Shown piece after piece: positions 3,381 through 10,234 of a DNA stretch of 64,000 bases. Below the pieces are notes generated by a model. The model did not search any database. It was not told the DNA's origin and worked only from the letters and a program-made list of their open reading frames with translations. How positions within the stretch are numbered: the stretch's first letter is position 1; each line of letters starts with the position of its first letter. Source of the stretch: Hydrogenophaga sp. SL48 (GTDB taxonomy: Bacteria > Pseudomonadota > Gammaproteobacteria > Burkholderiales > Burkholderiaceae_C); the NCBI RefSeq assembly GCF_021729865.1, contig NZ_CP063400.1, positions 434,001 to 498,000 on the forward strand, given 5' to 3'. The position numbers and the translations under genes are program-made.

Positions 3381-3457
3381 GATCCGGCGCCGGGCCGCCC
3401 CAAGCCGGATCAGCCCCCGTGGGGGGCAGCGACCCGCGAAGCGGCGGAGCGTGGGGG
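3381..3457 (-). repeat. GC-rich palindromic element, copy 1 (after lspA)
   Basis: Three palindromic parts in a row: a GATCCGGC/GCCGGATC hairpin, a GCCCCC/GGGGGC hairpin, and a CGC-rich end finishing in GGGGG. Read on the minus strand it begins CCCCC immediately after the lspA stop (TGA-CCCCC). Further GC-rich repeats (GTGGGGGCAAC twice) fill 3320-3380. Architecture matches the copies near 12950, 17366, 30951, 39039, 41771 and 56501. The 19-mer at 3387-3405 recurs exactly at 29857-29875. Confidence 0.7.
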
Positions 3458-3961: not shown

Positions 3962-6870
3962 CAGGCCACCTTGCGGGTTTCACCCGCGCCCGTGCCCGCC
4001 GCTTCGGCCAGGTTGCTCACGCAACGGCCGCACAGCGTGGGGTGCTCGGCGTGTTGCCCGATGTCGTCGGCGTAGTGCCAGCAGCGATCGCACTTGGCGG
4101 CGGTGCTGGGCGTCACGCTCACGGCCAGTTCGGCGCCGTCCACCACGGCCACGGCCGAGGTGATGGTGACGAACTTCAGGTCGGCGCCCAGCGAGCGCAG
4201 CAGCGCCGCGTCGTCGGCACCGGCGGTGATGACGAGCGTGGCCTGCAGCGAGGCGCCCACCTGGCCGGCGGTGCGCAGATCTTCGATGGCCTTGTTGGCC
4301 GCGTCACGGATGGCGCGGATGCGGCCCCACTTGGCGAGCAGCGCCTCGTTGGCCGACGGCAGGGGAGAGAAGGTTTCGAAGAAGATCGAGCCCTGGTTCT
4401 TGTCGCCCGAGAAATGCGTCCAGGCCTCTTCGGCCGTGAAACTCAGGAACGGCGCCATCCAGCGCAGCATGGCGTTCGTGATCTGGTGCAGCGCGGTCTG
4501 TGCCGAGCGGCGTGCCAGGCTTTTCGGCGCGGTCGTGTACAGCCGGTCCTTCAGCACGTCCAGGTAGAACGCGCCCAGGTCTTCCGAGCAATACACCTGC
4601 AGCTTGCTCACCACCGGATGGAATTCGTAGACGTCGAAGTGCGCCAGGATCTGGGCCTGCAGCTCGCTGGCGCGGGCCAGCGCGTAGCGGTCGATCTCCA
4701 GCATCTGCTCCAGCGGCACAGCGTCGGTGGCCGGGTCGAAGTCCGACACGTTGGCCATCAGGAATCGCAGCGTGTTGCGGATGCGGCGGTAGGCGTCGAC
4801 CACGCGGGCGAGGATCTTGTCGTCACCGGCGATGTCACCCGAATAGTCGGAGGAGGCGACCCACAGGCGGATGATCTCGGCGCCCAACTTCTTGTTGACC
4901 TCTTGCGGGTCCAGGCCATTGCCCAGCGACTTGCTCATCTTGCGGCCCTGGCTGTCGATGGTGAAGCCGTGGGTGAGCAGGCCGCGATAGGGCGCGCGGC
5001 CGTAGATGGCGCACGCCAACAACAGCGAGCTGTGGAACCAGCCGCGGTGCTGGTCGTGGCCTTCGAGGTAGAGGTTGGCCTCGGGCCCTTCTGCGTGCGC
5101 GGCGCCGTTGGGGTAGGCGTGGGCGTGGCTGCCGCGCAGCACGTGCCAGAAAGTGGAGCCCGAGTCGAACCAGACTTCGAGGATGTCGGTGCTCTTGGTG
5201 TAGTGCGGCGCATCGGCTGCGCCCAGGATCTCCTCGGCCGTGACGCGGCTCCAGGCCTCGATGCCGCCTTTTTCAATGATGTCGGCCGCCTGATCCAGGA
5301 TCTCCATCGTGCGAGGGTGCAGCTCGCCCGAATCCTTGTGCAGGAAAAAGGGGATGGGCACGCCCCACGAGCGCTGGCGCGAAATGCACCAGTCGGGCCG
5401 GTTGGCGATCATGTCGCGAAGGCGGGCCTGGCCGTTTTCGGGGTAGAAGCTGGTGTGGGCGATGGCGTCGAGCGCGAGCTGGCGCAGGGTCTTGGGCGCC
5501 TTGTCTTTCGTGAACACCCCTTCGCCCTCATCCATGCGCACGAACCACTGCGCGGCGGCGCGGTAGATCACCGGCGTCTTGTGGCGCCAGCAGTGCGGGT
5601 AGCTGTGGGTGATTTTCACCGTGGCCATCAGGCGCCCGGCGTTCTTCAGCGCGTCCAGGATGACCGGCACGGCCTTCCAGATGTGCAGGCCGCCGAACAA
5701 CGGGAAGTCGGGCGCGTAGGCGCCGTTGCCTTGCACCGGGTTCAGGATGTCGTCGTAGGCCAGGCCGTTGGCGACACAGGAGTTGAAGTCGTCCACGCCG
5801 TAGGCCGGCGCCGAGTGCACGATGCCGGTGCCGTCGCTGTCGCTCACGTAGTCGGCGATGTAGACCGGGGACAGGCGCTGGTAGCCTGCGTCCACGTCGT
5901 ACAGCGGGTGGCGGAAGTTGAGGCTACCGAGCTGGTCACCCTTCATGGTGGCGAGCACGTTGCCCTGCAGGCCGAATCGCTCCAGGCATTTCTCCACCAG
6001 CGTTTCGGCCAGCACCAGGCAGCCCATGGGGGTGTCGACCAGGGCGTAGGTCAGCTCGGGGTGTGCGTTGAGCGCCTGGTTGGCGGGAATGGTCCAGGCG
6101 GTGGTGGTCCAGATCACGGCGAAGGCGGTTTTGCCCGCGGGCAGACCGGTCAACCCGAAAGCGGCGGCCAGCTTGACCGCGTCGTCCGTTTCAAAGGCCA
6201 CGTCCAGCGTGTCGCTCTGCTTGTCGGCGTATTCGATCTCGAACTCGGCCAGCGAGCTGCCGCAGTCGAAACACCAGTACACGGGTTTCAGTCCGCGGTA
6301 GACAAAACCGCGCTCGATCACGCGTTTGAAGGCGCGGATTTCGCCCGCTTCGTTGCCCGGGTTCATCGTGAGGTAAGGGCGTTCCCAGTCACCGAGCACG
6401 CCCAGGCGCTTGAAGTCTTCGCGTTGCTGATCGATCTGCCCGGTGGCGAAGGCGCGGCTCTTGGCCTGCATGTCGTCGCGGCTGAGGTTGCGGCCGTGCT
6501 TCTTCTCGATCGCGTTTTCGATCGGCAGGCCGTGGCAGTCCCAGCCGGGGATGTACTGGGCATCGAAACCAGCGAGCTGTTTCGATTTCACGATCATGTC
6601 TTTCAGCACCTTGTTTACCGCATGACCCATGTGGATCTGGCCGTTGGCGTAGGGCGGGCCGTCGTGCAGCACAAACAGTGGGGCACCCTGGCGGGCGTCA
6701 CGCAGGCGCTTGTAGAGGCCGCTGCCGTTCCAGTCGTTGACCCAGGCTGGCTCGCGCTTGGGCAGGTCGCCGCGCATGGGGAACGGCGTGTCGGGCATGT
6801 TCAGCGTGGCGCGGTAGGCGCTGGCTTCGGGCTTGGCCTCGTTCTTCGGGGCGGCGGGTTTTTCAGACAT
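3961..6870 (-). CDS. ileS: Isoleucyl-tRNA synthetase
   Basis: 969 residues, slightly longer than the ~940 of enterobacterial IleS because of an N-terminal tail of ~20 residues. This class Ia synthetase charges tRNA-Ile and edits mischarged Val-tRNA. The HIGH motif is HMGH at 80-83, KMSKS is near residue 643, and the CP1 editing domain lies between them. A C-terminal zinc finger is present (CDRCWHY followed by CGRC). It is the middle gene of ribF-ileS-lspA. The 132-bp gap to ribF is very GC-rich, with CCGAGCC/GGCTCGG pairing, and could hold a separate promoter, though none is clear. Confidence 0.97.
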
Positions 6871-8212: not shown

Positions 8213-8770
8213 TTGAAGGTCTTGAAGCTGTCTGCCCAGGGGTTGCCACAATCGTGGATCAGCCTGGAAGAAGCGGTGCTGCATTACGCCGCGGATGAGG
8301 TGCGCTGGGAAATGGGTGCCGAGGTGGCGGTGTTCCATGGCGGGCACAACGCGATCACCGGGCGCCAGTCCATCATCACCGTCAATTCCATCATCGGCAC
8401 CGAGGGCGTGCCGCGCATCAATCCGTTCGACTTGCGGCCCTCGCTCACCAACAGCAAGCTGTTTGCCCGCGATCGCTGCCTGTGCGGCTACTGCGGCGAA
8501 CATTTCCACGAAGACGATCTCACCCGCGAGCACATCGTGCCGCTGGGCCAGCGCGGAATGGACATCTGGATGAATGTGGTGACGGCCTGCAAGTCGTGCA
8601 ACCACCGCAAGGGCAACCGCACGCCCGAGCAGGCGCACATGCCGCTGATTTACGCGCCTTACGTGCCCAGCCTCTGGGAAGACTTCATCCTGCGCAATCG
8701 CCGCATCCTGGCGGACCAGATGGAGTTTCTGATGTCCCACCTTCCCAAGAACTCGCGTTTGCACGCCTGA
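8213..8770 (+). CDS. HNH endonuclease family protein
   Basis: 185 residues. The C-terminal half holds a classic HNH fold: a CGYC zinc pair near residue 98, REHIVPLGQRG as the catalytic core (EHI/VP), and CKSCNHRKGN as the second zinc pair. The start is TTG at 8213, chosen because AAGGAG sits seven bases upstream; no ATG fits. Free-standing HNH proteins of this type are common in Burkholderiales, but their target is unknown. No toxin, immunity or phage genes are adjacent. It lies immediately upstream of the inverted structured elements at 8797-9046; any link between the two is conjecture. Confidence 0.85.
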   Translation: MKVLKLSAQGLPQSWISLEEAVLHYAADEVRWEMGAEVAVFHGGHNAITGRQSIITVNSIIGTEGVPRINPFDLRPSLTNSKLFARDRCLCGYCGEHFHEDDLTREHIVPLGQRGMDIWMNVVTACKSCNHRKGNRTPEQAHMPLIYAPYVPSLWEDFILRNRRILADQMEFLMSHLPKNSRLHA

Positions 8771-8796
8771 CGGTTTCTGGCCTGCTTGGTTTGCGT

Positions 8797-8900
8797 TGGC
8801 CTGAGGGCACTGGGCGGCCGACTCCGCTCATGTCCCCCGACGGCCTGCGGCCGTCTCCTCCTTTACTTCGCTGCGTCAGCCACCCAGTGCCCTCAGGCCA
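8797..8900 (+). repeat. Structured palindromic element, unit 1
   Basis: 104 nt with perfect outer arms (8797-8814 with 8883-8900). Inside are two conserved tracts, CTCCGCTCATGTCCCCCG and CTCCTCCTTTACTTCGCTGC, separated by a small hairpin GACGGCC-TGC-GGCCGTC. The same tracts, with different but still complementary stems, occur inverted in unit 2. The whole 348-bp gap 8771-9118 contains only these two units, their spacer and one terminator. Confidence 0.85.
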
Positions 8901-8944
8901 CGAACATTTGGGCGGGCCTGCGGTGGTGTGCCTGCTTTTCGCCA

Positions 8945-9046
8945 GATCGGTGAGGCGGTGTGCCCTGAGCAGCGAAGTAAAGGAGGAGGGCTGGCGCAGC
9001 CAGCCCGGGGGACATGAGCGGAGCAGGGCACACCGCCTTACCGATC
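8945..9046 (-). repeat. Structured palindromic element, unit 2 (inverted)
   Basis: 102 nt in the opposite orientation to unit 1. Outer arms of 23 nt (8945-8967 and 9024-9046) pair with one mismatch and are unrelated in sequence to the arms of unit 1. On the minus strand the core reads CTCCGCTCATGTCCCCCG, hairpin GGCTGGC-TGC-GCCAGCC, then CTCCTCCTTTACTTCGCTGC. Both core tracts are identical to unit 1; both stems have changed on both sides. Confidence 0.85.
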
Positions 9047-9065
9047 CCGCAGAAGCCGATGAGCG

Positions 9066-9089
9066 AAAAAAAGCCCCGCAAAGCGGGGC
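9066..9089 (-). terminator. Intrinsic terminator of the acyl-CoA dehydrogenase operon
   Basis: Stem GCCCCGC/GCGGGGC (9073-9089) with a 3-nt loop. On the minus strand it is followed by seven T (9066-9072). It lies 30 bp after the stop of the dehydrogenase small subunit gene. Confidence 0.9.
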
Positions 9090-9118
9090 ACCACAAGCGG
9101 AGTCGAAAAGAAGAAGAC

Positions 9119-10234
9119 TCAGGCAAACACCCCCGCCGTGTCCTCCATCCGGGCCGACACCTCACCCAGGTGGTGCAGCGTGTCGCCAAAAGTCATCTCC
9201 AGCTGGGTGAGCTTCTTGAAGTAGTGGCTGCCGATGTACTCGTCGGTCACGCCGATGCCACCGTGCAGCTGCACCGACTGCTGGCCCACGAAGCGCATCG
9301 AGCTACCCAGCTGCACCTTGGCCCGTGCCATCGCGCGGCGGCGCTCGGTGGCCGGGGCGTTGAGCTTCAGGCAGGCGTAGAAGCTCATGGAGCGCGCCAG
9401 CTCCAGCTGCATTTTCATGTCGGCCACGCGGTGACGCAGGGCCTGGAACGTCGCGATCGCCACGCCAAACTGTTTGCGCGTGTTCATGTACTCCACGGTC
9501 AGCGCCACCGTTTTGTCCATCACGCCCACCGCTTCGGCACAGACCGAGGCGATGCCGATGTCCACCGCGTGTTCCAGCGCGGCCAGGCCGTCGGTGGTGA
9601 TCAGGCTGGCCGGGGCGTTCTGCAGCGTGAGCTCGGCGGCGCGGCCGCCATCCTGGGTGCCATAGCCCTGCGTGCTCACGCCGCTGGCGCTGCGCTCCAC
9701 GAGGAACAATGCGATCTTGCCGTTGGCCACGGCGGGCACGAGGAAGGCGTCGGCCAGGTCACCGGCGGGCACCACGCTCTTGGCGCCGCTCACCGTCCAG
9801 CCACTGCCGTCCGGGGTGGCGGTGGTCTTGCAGGCATCCAGCCGGTAGCGCGAACCGCGTTCTTGCTGCGCGAGCACCACCAGCGCCTCGCCCGAGGCGA
9901 TCTTCGGCAACCAGGCGGCCTTGACCTCAGCGCCCGCATAACCCCCGATCACACCACCTGCGATCAGCGTCTGCGCCAGCGGCTCCAGCACGATGCCGCG
10001 GCCCAGTTCCTCCATCACCACCATGCCCTCGACCGGGCCCATGCCCAGGCCGCCATCGGCTTCGCTGATGTAGAGGCCCGCCAGGCCGAGTTCGGCCAGT
10101 TCGTTGTAGGCCGCGCGTTCAAAGCCTCCGGCTTTCACGATGCCACGGCGGCGCTCGAAGTCGTAGCCCTTGTCGACCCACTTGCGCACCGCGTCGCGAA
10201 GCTGTTCCTGATCGTCGGAAAAATCAAAGTCCAT
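9119..10234 (-). CDS. Acyl-CoA dehydrogenase, PimD-like (small) subunit
   Basis: 371 residues; an FAD flavoprotein of the acyl-CoA dehydrogenase family. The N-terminal helical domain runs to ~115, the beta domain to ~225, and the C-terminal helical domain carries RKQFGVAIATFQALRH and QLHGGIGVTDE. It resembles the small subunit of pimeloyl-CoA dehydrogenase-like enzymes. The partner gene lies 11 bp upstream, so the two probably form a heteromer that oxidises a dicarboxylic or other unusual acyl-CoA. The substrate is an inference from family resemblance only. Confidence 0.85.
   Translation of the reverse strand: MDFDFSDDQEQLRDAVRKWVDKGYDFERRRGIVKAGGFERAAYNELAELGLAGLYISEADGGLGMGPVEGMVVMEELGRGIVLEPLAQTLIAGGVIGGYAGAEVKAAWLPKIASGEALVVLAQQERGSRYRLDACKTTATPDGSGWTVSGAKSVVPAGDLADAFLVPAVANGKIALFLVERSASGVSTQGYGTQDGGRAAELTLQNAPASLITTDGLAALEHAVDIGIASVCAEAVGVMDKTVALTVEYMNTRKQFGVAIATFQALRHRVADMKMQLELARSMSFYACLKLNAPATERRRAMARAKVQLGSSMRFVGQQSVQLHGGIGVTDEYIGSHYFKKLTQLEMTFGDTLHHLGEVSARMEDTAGVFA

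Follow-up and report, generated by a model that had tools for sequence, protein, structure and literature searches.

The element and its surroundings

The window analysed here, a 64-kb stretch of a Hydrogenophaga genome, contains one element of about 250 bp, composed of two inverted units of about 104 nt that are separated by a 44-bp spacer and flanked by convergent genes. We refer to the purine-rich strand of each unit as the R strand and to the opposite strand as Y. Along the R strand, the order within a unit is 5' arm, GCAGCGAAGTAAAGGAGGAG, inner hairpin, CGGGGGACATGAGCGGAG and 3' arm. The features of the locus are as follows.

8213-8770, plus strand: HNH-domain gene, with its 3' end facing the element
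8798-8899, R strand on minus: left unit (covariance model R1, 99.6 bits); in the plus-strand reading, 5' arm 8797-8821, tract A 8822-8839, inner hairpin 8840-8854, tract B 8855-8874, 3' arm 8875-8900
8900-8943, no strand: spacer, 44 bp separating both units
8944-9047, R strand on plus: right unit (covariance model R1, 114.8 bits; itself among the 16 units used to build the model); plus-strand parts are 5' arm 8945-8967, tract B' 8969-8988, inner hairpin 8989-9005, tract A' 9006-9023, 3' arm 9024-9046
9073-9089, minus strand: terminator-like hairpin with T run, belonging to the acyl-CoA dehydrogenase gene and outside the element
9119-10234, minus strand: acyl-CoA dehydrogenase gene, with its 3' end facing the element

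The terminator-like site (one found vs 0.6 expected in shuffles) lies between the acyl-CoA dehydrogenase gene and the element. A promoter scan returned no promoter-like sites in 8700-9200, spacer included. The pattern of tract, hairpin and tract occurs twice in the window and in 0 of 100 shuffles. Folded as RNA, the R strands of the left and right units had z values of -9.05 and -9.69, which none of 200 shuffles equalled; folded as DNA, they had z values of -7.95 and -7.93. The opposite strands also folded well as RNA (z of -8.16 and -8.89), yet more weakly than the R strands (-66.5 vs -76.6 and -63.6 vs -70.8 kcal/mol).

Re-examination of the window sequence bore out the coordinates, tracts, arms and inner hairpins described in the initial annotation. 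The arms, given there as 18-23 nt, do pair and are about 23-26 nt long, and what look like two mismatches in the left arm turn out to be G-U/G-T pairs once the R strand is read. The two shared exact tracts are present as well, but not as plain unpaired loops, because they partly pair with each other.

A dispersed family of inverted pairs

In the whole window, only a tRNA scored above its Rfam 15 gathering score, and a search of 8700-9130 at E up to 5 returned six weak matches, the best with 23.4 bits against a gathering score of 84. The earlier statement that no described family has these tracts holds in Rfam 15 and in the open-licence papers searched, on which basis the family is apparently undescribed so far.

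One tract, with up to two mismatches, had 20 matches in the same genome, compared with 0 for a reversed control. The strict pattern was present in 14 of 60 relatives, namely in 14 of 36 genomes of the genus (this one included), whereas none of the 24 genomes from other families had it. We built a covariance model from 16 equal-length units aligned without structure; it recovered at least 28 units in the Hydrogenophaga genome when the best 150 of 6119 candidates were scored. These units are scattered over the chromosome and comprise 10 close pairs, all in minus-plus order with spacers of 41-55 bp, and eight others, including two in minus-plus order that lie 755 bp from each other. That copies occur in relatives and can be captured by a covariance model, as envisaged in the initial annotation, was confirmed in the wider family, where at least 73 of 150 sampled genomes carried units (best 26 candidates per genome scored, with stricter filters than in the Hydrogenophaga genome). 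A class-wide sample at a stricter limit yielded units in 5 of 370 genomes, two of them from the same genus and one marginal. Over named genomes, the exact core pattern gave at least 120 stretches; among the matches listed are Hydrogenophaga, Rhodoferax, Rubrivivax, Variovorax, Ramlibacter, Curvibacter, Janthinobacterium, Rhodocyclaceae, Stenotrophomonas, Lysobacter, Luteimonas and Pseudoxanthomonas, so that records of Rhodocyclaceae and Xanthomonadaceae are also represented. Close neighbours in the fetched loci (n = 78) were 72 minus-plus, three plus-minus, two minus-minus and one plus-plus, and spacer lengths clustered at 40-46 bp. Phage records gave no blastn match, plasmid records gave weak partial matches in three Variovorax replicons and one Burkholderia plasmid, and 3 of 12 candidate viral contigs found by the pattern carry a unit by the covariance model.

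A public record titled Bacillus subtilis SK7B5 (L112, L130, L144, L177, L193) carries several units; since the family is otherwise proteobacterial, this record is probably mislabelled or contaminated. In a Luteimonas locus (L142), pairs at 545-821 and 4215-4490 stand in mirror order with the same inner hairpins and about 3.4 kb of ordinary genes between them, as though one pair were the other copied in reverse orientation.

Selection on structure

Covariation was examined in A1, the 16-unit alignment made by MAFFT with no structure used, and in A2 and A3, which were fitted to the covariance model. In A1, 94.1% of cells were paired, compared with 70.8% in shuffles and at most 40.6% when slid by 1-3 columns, and both-sided change occurred in 31 of 37 pairs vs 20.0 in shuffles (0 of 500 that high). 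In A2 (150 units, 8 of 158 matches being left unaligned), 95.2% of cells were paired vs 57.1% shuffled, with a covariation score of 0.834 vs 0.189; double change was seen in all 37 of 37 pairs, a count that is uninformative alone, as 5 of 500 shuffles reach 37. Because A2 had been fitted to structure, we ran a core-only test on units found with no structure in the search. Their arms scored at least 12 in 274 of 285 cases, and arms swapped between units did so in 5 of 283. Swapped arms therefore almost never pair, and together with the absence of the pattern from shuffles of the window this excludes a chance origin. Copies whose arms do not pair, against which the initial annotation had weighed its structural claim, exist in small number (arm score <9 in 9 of the 285 core matches).

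It could be argued that the covariation is an artefact of structure-fitted alignment or of related copies, given that A2 and A3 were fitted to the model, that kinship of copies inflates the cell counts, and that the double changes of A2 are matched by some shuffles. However, the excess of double-change pairs in A1 arose in a structure-free alignment, and the units of the core-only test were likewise found without structure. These results already refute the artefact, to which we assign a negligible chance. Selection for structure, as opposed to a plain repeat, had been proposed in the initial annotation and is strongly supported by A1, A2, the core-only test and the strand bias described below, and we regard it as practically certain that the structure is real and strand-specific. 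The stems had also been said to differ completely while remaining complementary; they do pair, but their difference is not unlimited, as subfamilies have stems in common at unrelated loci and orthologous copies keep recognisable stems.

Within the tracts, columns 29-76, 30-75 and 33-72 pair around a tandem G-A/A-G step, and the latter two covary. Columns 41/66 show partly concerted changes (A/G in 254 units, G/A in 12, C/G in 2, A/A in 7 and G/G in 1), and the G/A class could have originated in a few lineages. The core contains four near-invariant GG steps with single-base linkers. Deviations from the exact core occur in 85 of 276 units, and its conservation is partly built in, because the core was the search key.

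The folded strand and its loops

A stem that is selected on one strand tolerates decay of G-C to G-T and resists A-C. With symmetric scoring, 58 Hydrogenophaga units had 94 changes to G-T on the R strand vs 8 of the other kind, and 276 units (9 of 285 core matches with arm score <9 being left out) had 469 G-T vs 32 A-C. At codirectional loci, the G-T:A-C ratio was 71:2 where R is the mRNA strand (47 units) and 65:2 where R is the complement of the mRNA strand (43 units). The bias is thus alike in R-sense and R-antisense units, indicating that the folded strand is a property of the element and independent of flanking transcription. Arm-internal non-Watson-Crick pairs in 205 units (25 of 230 rows dropped) were G-T 334, A-G 44, G-G 37, A-C 18, T-T 6, C-C 5, C-T 3 and A-A 2, with G-T accounting for 334 of 4100 inner arm pairs. 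This ranking is near the stability order of DNA mismatches and leans to single-stranded DNA, while being compatible with RNA as well.

The inner hairpins were also asymmetric. Strict triloops, of the form C(GNA)G-like, were GNA in 122 of 148 cases and the complement TNC in 0 of 148, and with G-T and one mismatch allowed GNA was found in 177 of 214 and C-G closure in 207 of 214; these loop counts are non-independent, because related copies share loops. Across 0.94 Mb of these loci, 72 background C(NNN)G hairpins comprised 7 GNA and 2 TNC. The strict tetraloops (n = 19) included six GNNA, of which two were GNRA, and one UUCG. The stabilisation provided by GNA loops is weaker in RNA than in DNA. 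According to PMC4686876, DNA minihairpins with GNA or GNNA loops are extraordinarily stable. Loop type and indifference to flanking transcription favour single-stranded DNA over RNA.

A site for double-stranded DNA binding or a cruciform, in which palindromy itself is selected, would be consistent with the clustering of spacer lengths, and the palindromic arms could conceivably extrude. Such a site gives no reason for the 15-fold strand asymmetry of mismatches or for the restriction of GNA to the R strand, however, and we consider it quite improbable.

Gene neighborhoods and orthologous sites

Gene calls came from a simple codon-usage caller trained on the window, and some neighbour genes are therefore expected to be wrong. 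In 33 of 40 Hydrogenophaga groups both neighbours were called, giving 14 convergent, 18 codirectional and 1 divergent setting, with orthologues uncollapsed and 8 of the 40 groups that overlap a predicted ORF kept in. In the wider set, from which 8 of 113 groups overlapping a predicted ORF were left out, pairs were convergent in 15, codirectional in 31 and divergent in 2 cases, and a neighbour went uncalled for 12 further pairs; among single units flanked by two called genes, 12 were convergent, 13 codirectional and 1 divergent. The codirectional single units, numbering only 13, showed no orientation preference (6 R-sense, 7 R-antisense).

Two other sites were occupied across genera. The site between carboxyltransferase and biotin carboxylase genes carries pairs in Hydrogenophaga (L006, L012, L021, L108; in L011 a pair lies beside the carboxyltransferase, with only that side of the site covered), in Rhodoferax (L148) and in Comamonadaceae to Burkholderiales MAGs (L165, L169, L186, L208). 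Single units lie beside these genes in Curvibacter (L100) and Rivibacter (L140). The same short left-unit subtype was found in 9 of 10 pair loci of this site, with stems that differ by compensated changes. The aldehyde dehydrogenase site carries pairs in seven Hydrogenophaga loci and in three other genera (L070, L072, L077), and a LigB dioxygenase gene is the other neighbour where called (uncalled in L024 and L077). Here too, changes in the stems are compensated.

For the window's own site, 30 loci were retrieved from 55 genomes carrying the HNH gene: a pair was present in seven (this one included), one held a collapsed remnant, the element was absent beside the same neighbour in 10, and 12 were unjudged. 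The remnant, at the HNH/acyl-CoA dehydrogenase site of L236, seems to be a single hairpin that joins the outer half of one unit to that of the other, as though a deletion between the inverted tracts had removed the interior. The HNH gene tree was poorly resolved, and the presence label needs five changes on it (shuffled mean 7.2; 12 of 500 as low). Occupancy of this site is patchy, and a single origin is neither demonstrated nor excluded by the tree. Pairs shared across genera, together with variable occupancy of the HNH site, show that some sites are old and maintained while occupancy still varies, and such persistence at orthologous positions suggests that the host makes use of the element.

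Pairing between outer flanks was weak (5.63 vs 5.26 permuted; 1 of 200 permutations as high), and a spacer hairpin was not found to be a general part of the element (mean z of -0.7 and -0.5, with z below -2 in 11 and 10 of 68, by mononucleotide shuffles). The 30-nt flank 3' of the R unit is poor in T (8-18%) and rich in A and C, with AAAA in 27 of 216; these A/C-rich flanks may come in part from terminators of the facing genes. No linked gene family was found among 840 predicted neighbour proteins, whose 25 largest clusters, judged by eye, represent orthologous loci and ordinary enzymes.

Relationship to known repeats and mobility

The likeness to REP, BIME and REPIN sequences lies in dispersed intergenic palindromes, in inverted pairs with a short spacer and in one hairpin orientation per strand; their inverted-pair layout was found in 10 of 10 close pairs of the Hydrogenophaga genome and in 72 of 78 fetched close neighbours. 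The present units are, however, two-tier structures of about 104 nt, compared with the 20-40 bp given for REPs in PMC3733652. They differ further in that their stems vary while the internal purine core stays fixed. For REPs moved by RAYT (TnpA-REP), a Y1 (HUH) transposase is present in the genome, often beside the copies. PMC2817692 describes such REPs as having a GT(A/G)G head at the hairpin's 5' foot. In contrast, the units described here have neither a regular GT(A/G)G head, which occurs within 8 nt of the 5' end of the R unit in 26 of 214 units and at the 3' end in 4, nor an association with Y1: the domain was found in 57 of 73 genomes with units vs 56 of 77 without. The single Y1 gene of the Hydrogenophaga genome lies about 50 kb from the nearest unit, and none of 11 fetched Y1 loci, of about 3 kb each, contained units. 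The link to a Y1-family transposase suggested in the initial annotation thus did not hold.

It is conceivable that the element is a REPIN-like miniature mobile element, moved in trans by a putative single-strand transposase or recombinase, and that the copies seen today mostly reflect movement in the past. This would fit the scattering of copies, their inverted pairing and the strand-specific hairpins, as well as the stems common to subfamilies at unrelated loci and the differing occupancy of the HNH site within the genus. The Y1 counts speak against this, as do the flanks, which show no target site duplication beyond permuted flanks (a shared word of at least 4 between the 12-nt outer flanks in 14 of 71 pairs vs a permuted mean of 18.3), and compensated change at orthologous sites indicates constraint after insertion. 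We consider this explanation unlikely. With regard to the earlier idea of a REP-like element moved as single-stranded DNA, the layout is REPIN-like and the Y1 link was not found; movement is only suggested, by differences in occupancy from one species to another. We rejected autonomous copies that would carry a gene within the pair, as no transposase-like gene was seen by eye between wide-spaced units (L063, L120, L162, L189) or between the mirror pairs of L142.

Betaproteobacterial repeat elements (BRE) resemble the present family as intergenic repeats of similar unit length that were first noticed through predicted RNA structure. Hot et al. 2011 (PMC3110155) describe tandem units of 75-91 bp with no or few bases between them, and 0 of 13 tabulated loci between divergent genes. 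On that published description BREs are direct tandems, whereas the present units form inverted pairs about 45 bp apart. A second GC-rich repeat, with core CCCCCTCGGGGGGCAGCGA, has 74 matches (up to two mismatches) in the Hydrogenophaga genome, partly in direct tandem every 81-87 bp; copies include 3414-3432 of the window (two mismatches), G000:C1:2642484-2642668 and 3788813-3789005, and L220 and L239. This repeat fits the BRE description better than the paired element does, and may be a BRE. In integron attC sites, one strand is read as a folded hairpin whose stem sequence is free and whose fixed features are read. The combination of a single folded strand, free stem sequence and fixed features is shared by the present element; unlike attC, no linked recombinase was noticed among the neighbour clusters, and the units are scattered rather than arranged in cassette arrays.

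RNA or single-stranded DNA

The most serious alternative is that the R strand works as RNA. Transcription from either side would yield a transcript whose 3' part contains an R hairpin, and this hairpin could protect the mRNA end, attenuate downstream genes or stop antisense transcription, as a two-way, non-intrinsic transcript-boundary element like intercistronic BIMEs. Covariation with G-U-like tolerance is typical of RNA, the units lie after stop codons and rarely between divergent genes, and the element is kept inside apparent operons. However, R-antisense units are constrained like R-sense units, a terminator-like site separates the left R strand from the window gene able to transcribe it, the surrounding 8700-9200 region has no promoter-like site, and the common RNA tetraloops GNRA and UUCG are rare among the strict tetraloops. 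On balance, action as RNA is possible, although we find it doubtful.

Three transcript-level variants were rejected. A spacer promoter driving two divergent R RNAs was set aside since the window copy has no promoter-like site. A sense-strand mRNA element was a first impression from single units in the Hydrogenophaga genome, and the wider codirectional singles are divided almost evenly between sense and antisense. An intrinsic terminator lacks the T run after the stem: 1 of 216 units has TTTT in the 20 nt that follow the R unit, and T makes up 8-13% of the first 15 positions downstream.

Proposed mechanism and implications

At the sequence level, the two-tier stem, its strand, the inverted pairing and the long maintenance at two orthologous sites are established. 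We propose, as the best explanation and with a rough probability of 0.45, that the element is a dispersed bipartite REPIN/BIME-like inverted pair that works as folded single-stranded DNA of the R strand. If this explanation is taken jointly with the mobile one, we lean somewhat towards action as single-stranded DNA. Because two strand-specific hairpins are inverted, each DNA strand has one foldable R hairpin at its 3' half. The lagging-strand template of a passing replication fork would thus expose one R hairpin in either fork direction, since each strand of the pair carries one. The exposed R strand would fold into an outer helix, a tandem G-A step, a purine-rich core with four GG steps, and a GNA-capped inner hairpin. 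A putative protein may bind the folded hairpin, reading core and shape rather than stem sequence, and its candidate roles are past movement of the element, fork protection or restart, or the marking of gene ends. As a guess, the GG-N-GG...GG-N-GG core might form a two-tier G-quadruplex around the inner hairpin.

This single-stranded DNA explanation draws on the covariation, the core-only test, the strand asymmetry, the GNA loops, the minus-plus layout and the orthologous maintenance. Other observations weigh against it: the G-T frequency also fits RNA, and the scarcity of sites between divergent promoters (1 of 33 and 2 of 48 called) is equally compatible with a role at the level of transcripts. 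Loops other than GNA occur, presence at the window's site is patchy, and the codirectional single units, few as they are, show no orientation preference.

With hundreds of units whose stems covary, the family represents a large natural experiment: wobble asymmetry identifies the folded strand and allows it to be distinguished from the direction of flanking transcription. It also provides a caution, as covariation together with G-U tolerance, commonly read as proof of RNA, occurs here on a strand untranscribed by neighbour genes. The family is present in common environmental genera and in Stenotrophomonas records, without a match in Rfam 15, and makes it testable whether bacteria keep chromosomal elements that are selected for folded single-stranded DNA. 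A more far-reaching version, which we put forward tentatively and hold to be rather unlikely, is that the pairs are a host-maintained chromosomal signal, with hairpins read only as single-stranded DNA, every fork exposing one, and possibly a G-quadruplex core. If true, such a signal would represent a new class of DNA element tied to replication or recombination, in which shape rather than sequence is under selection.
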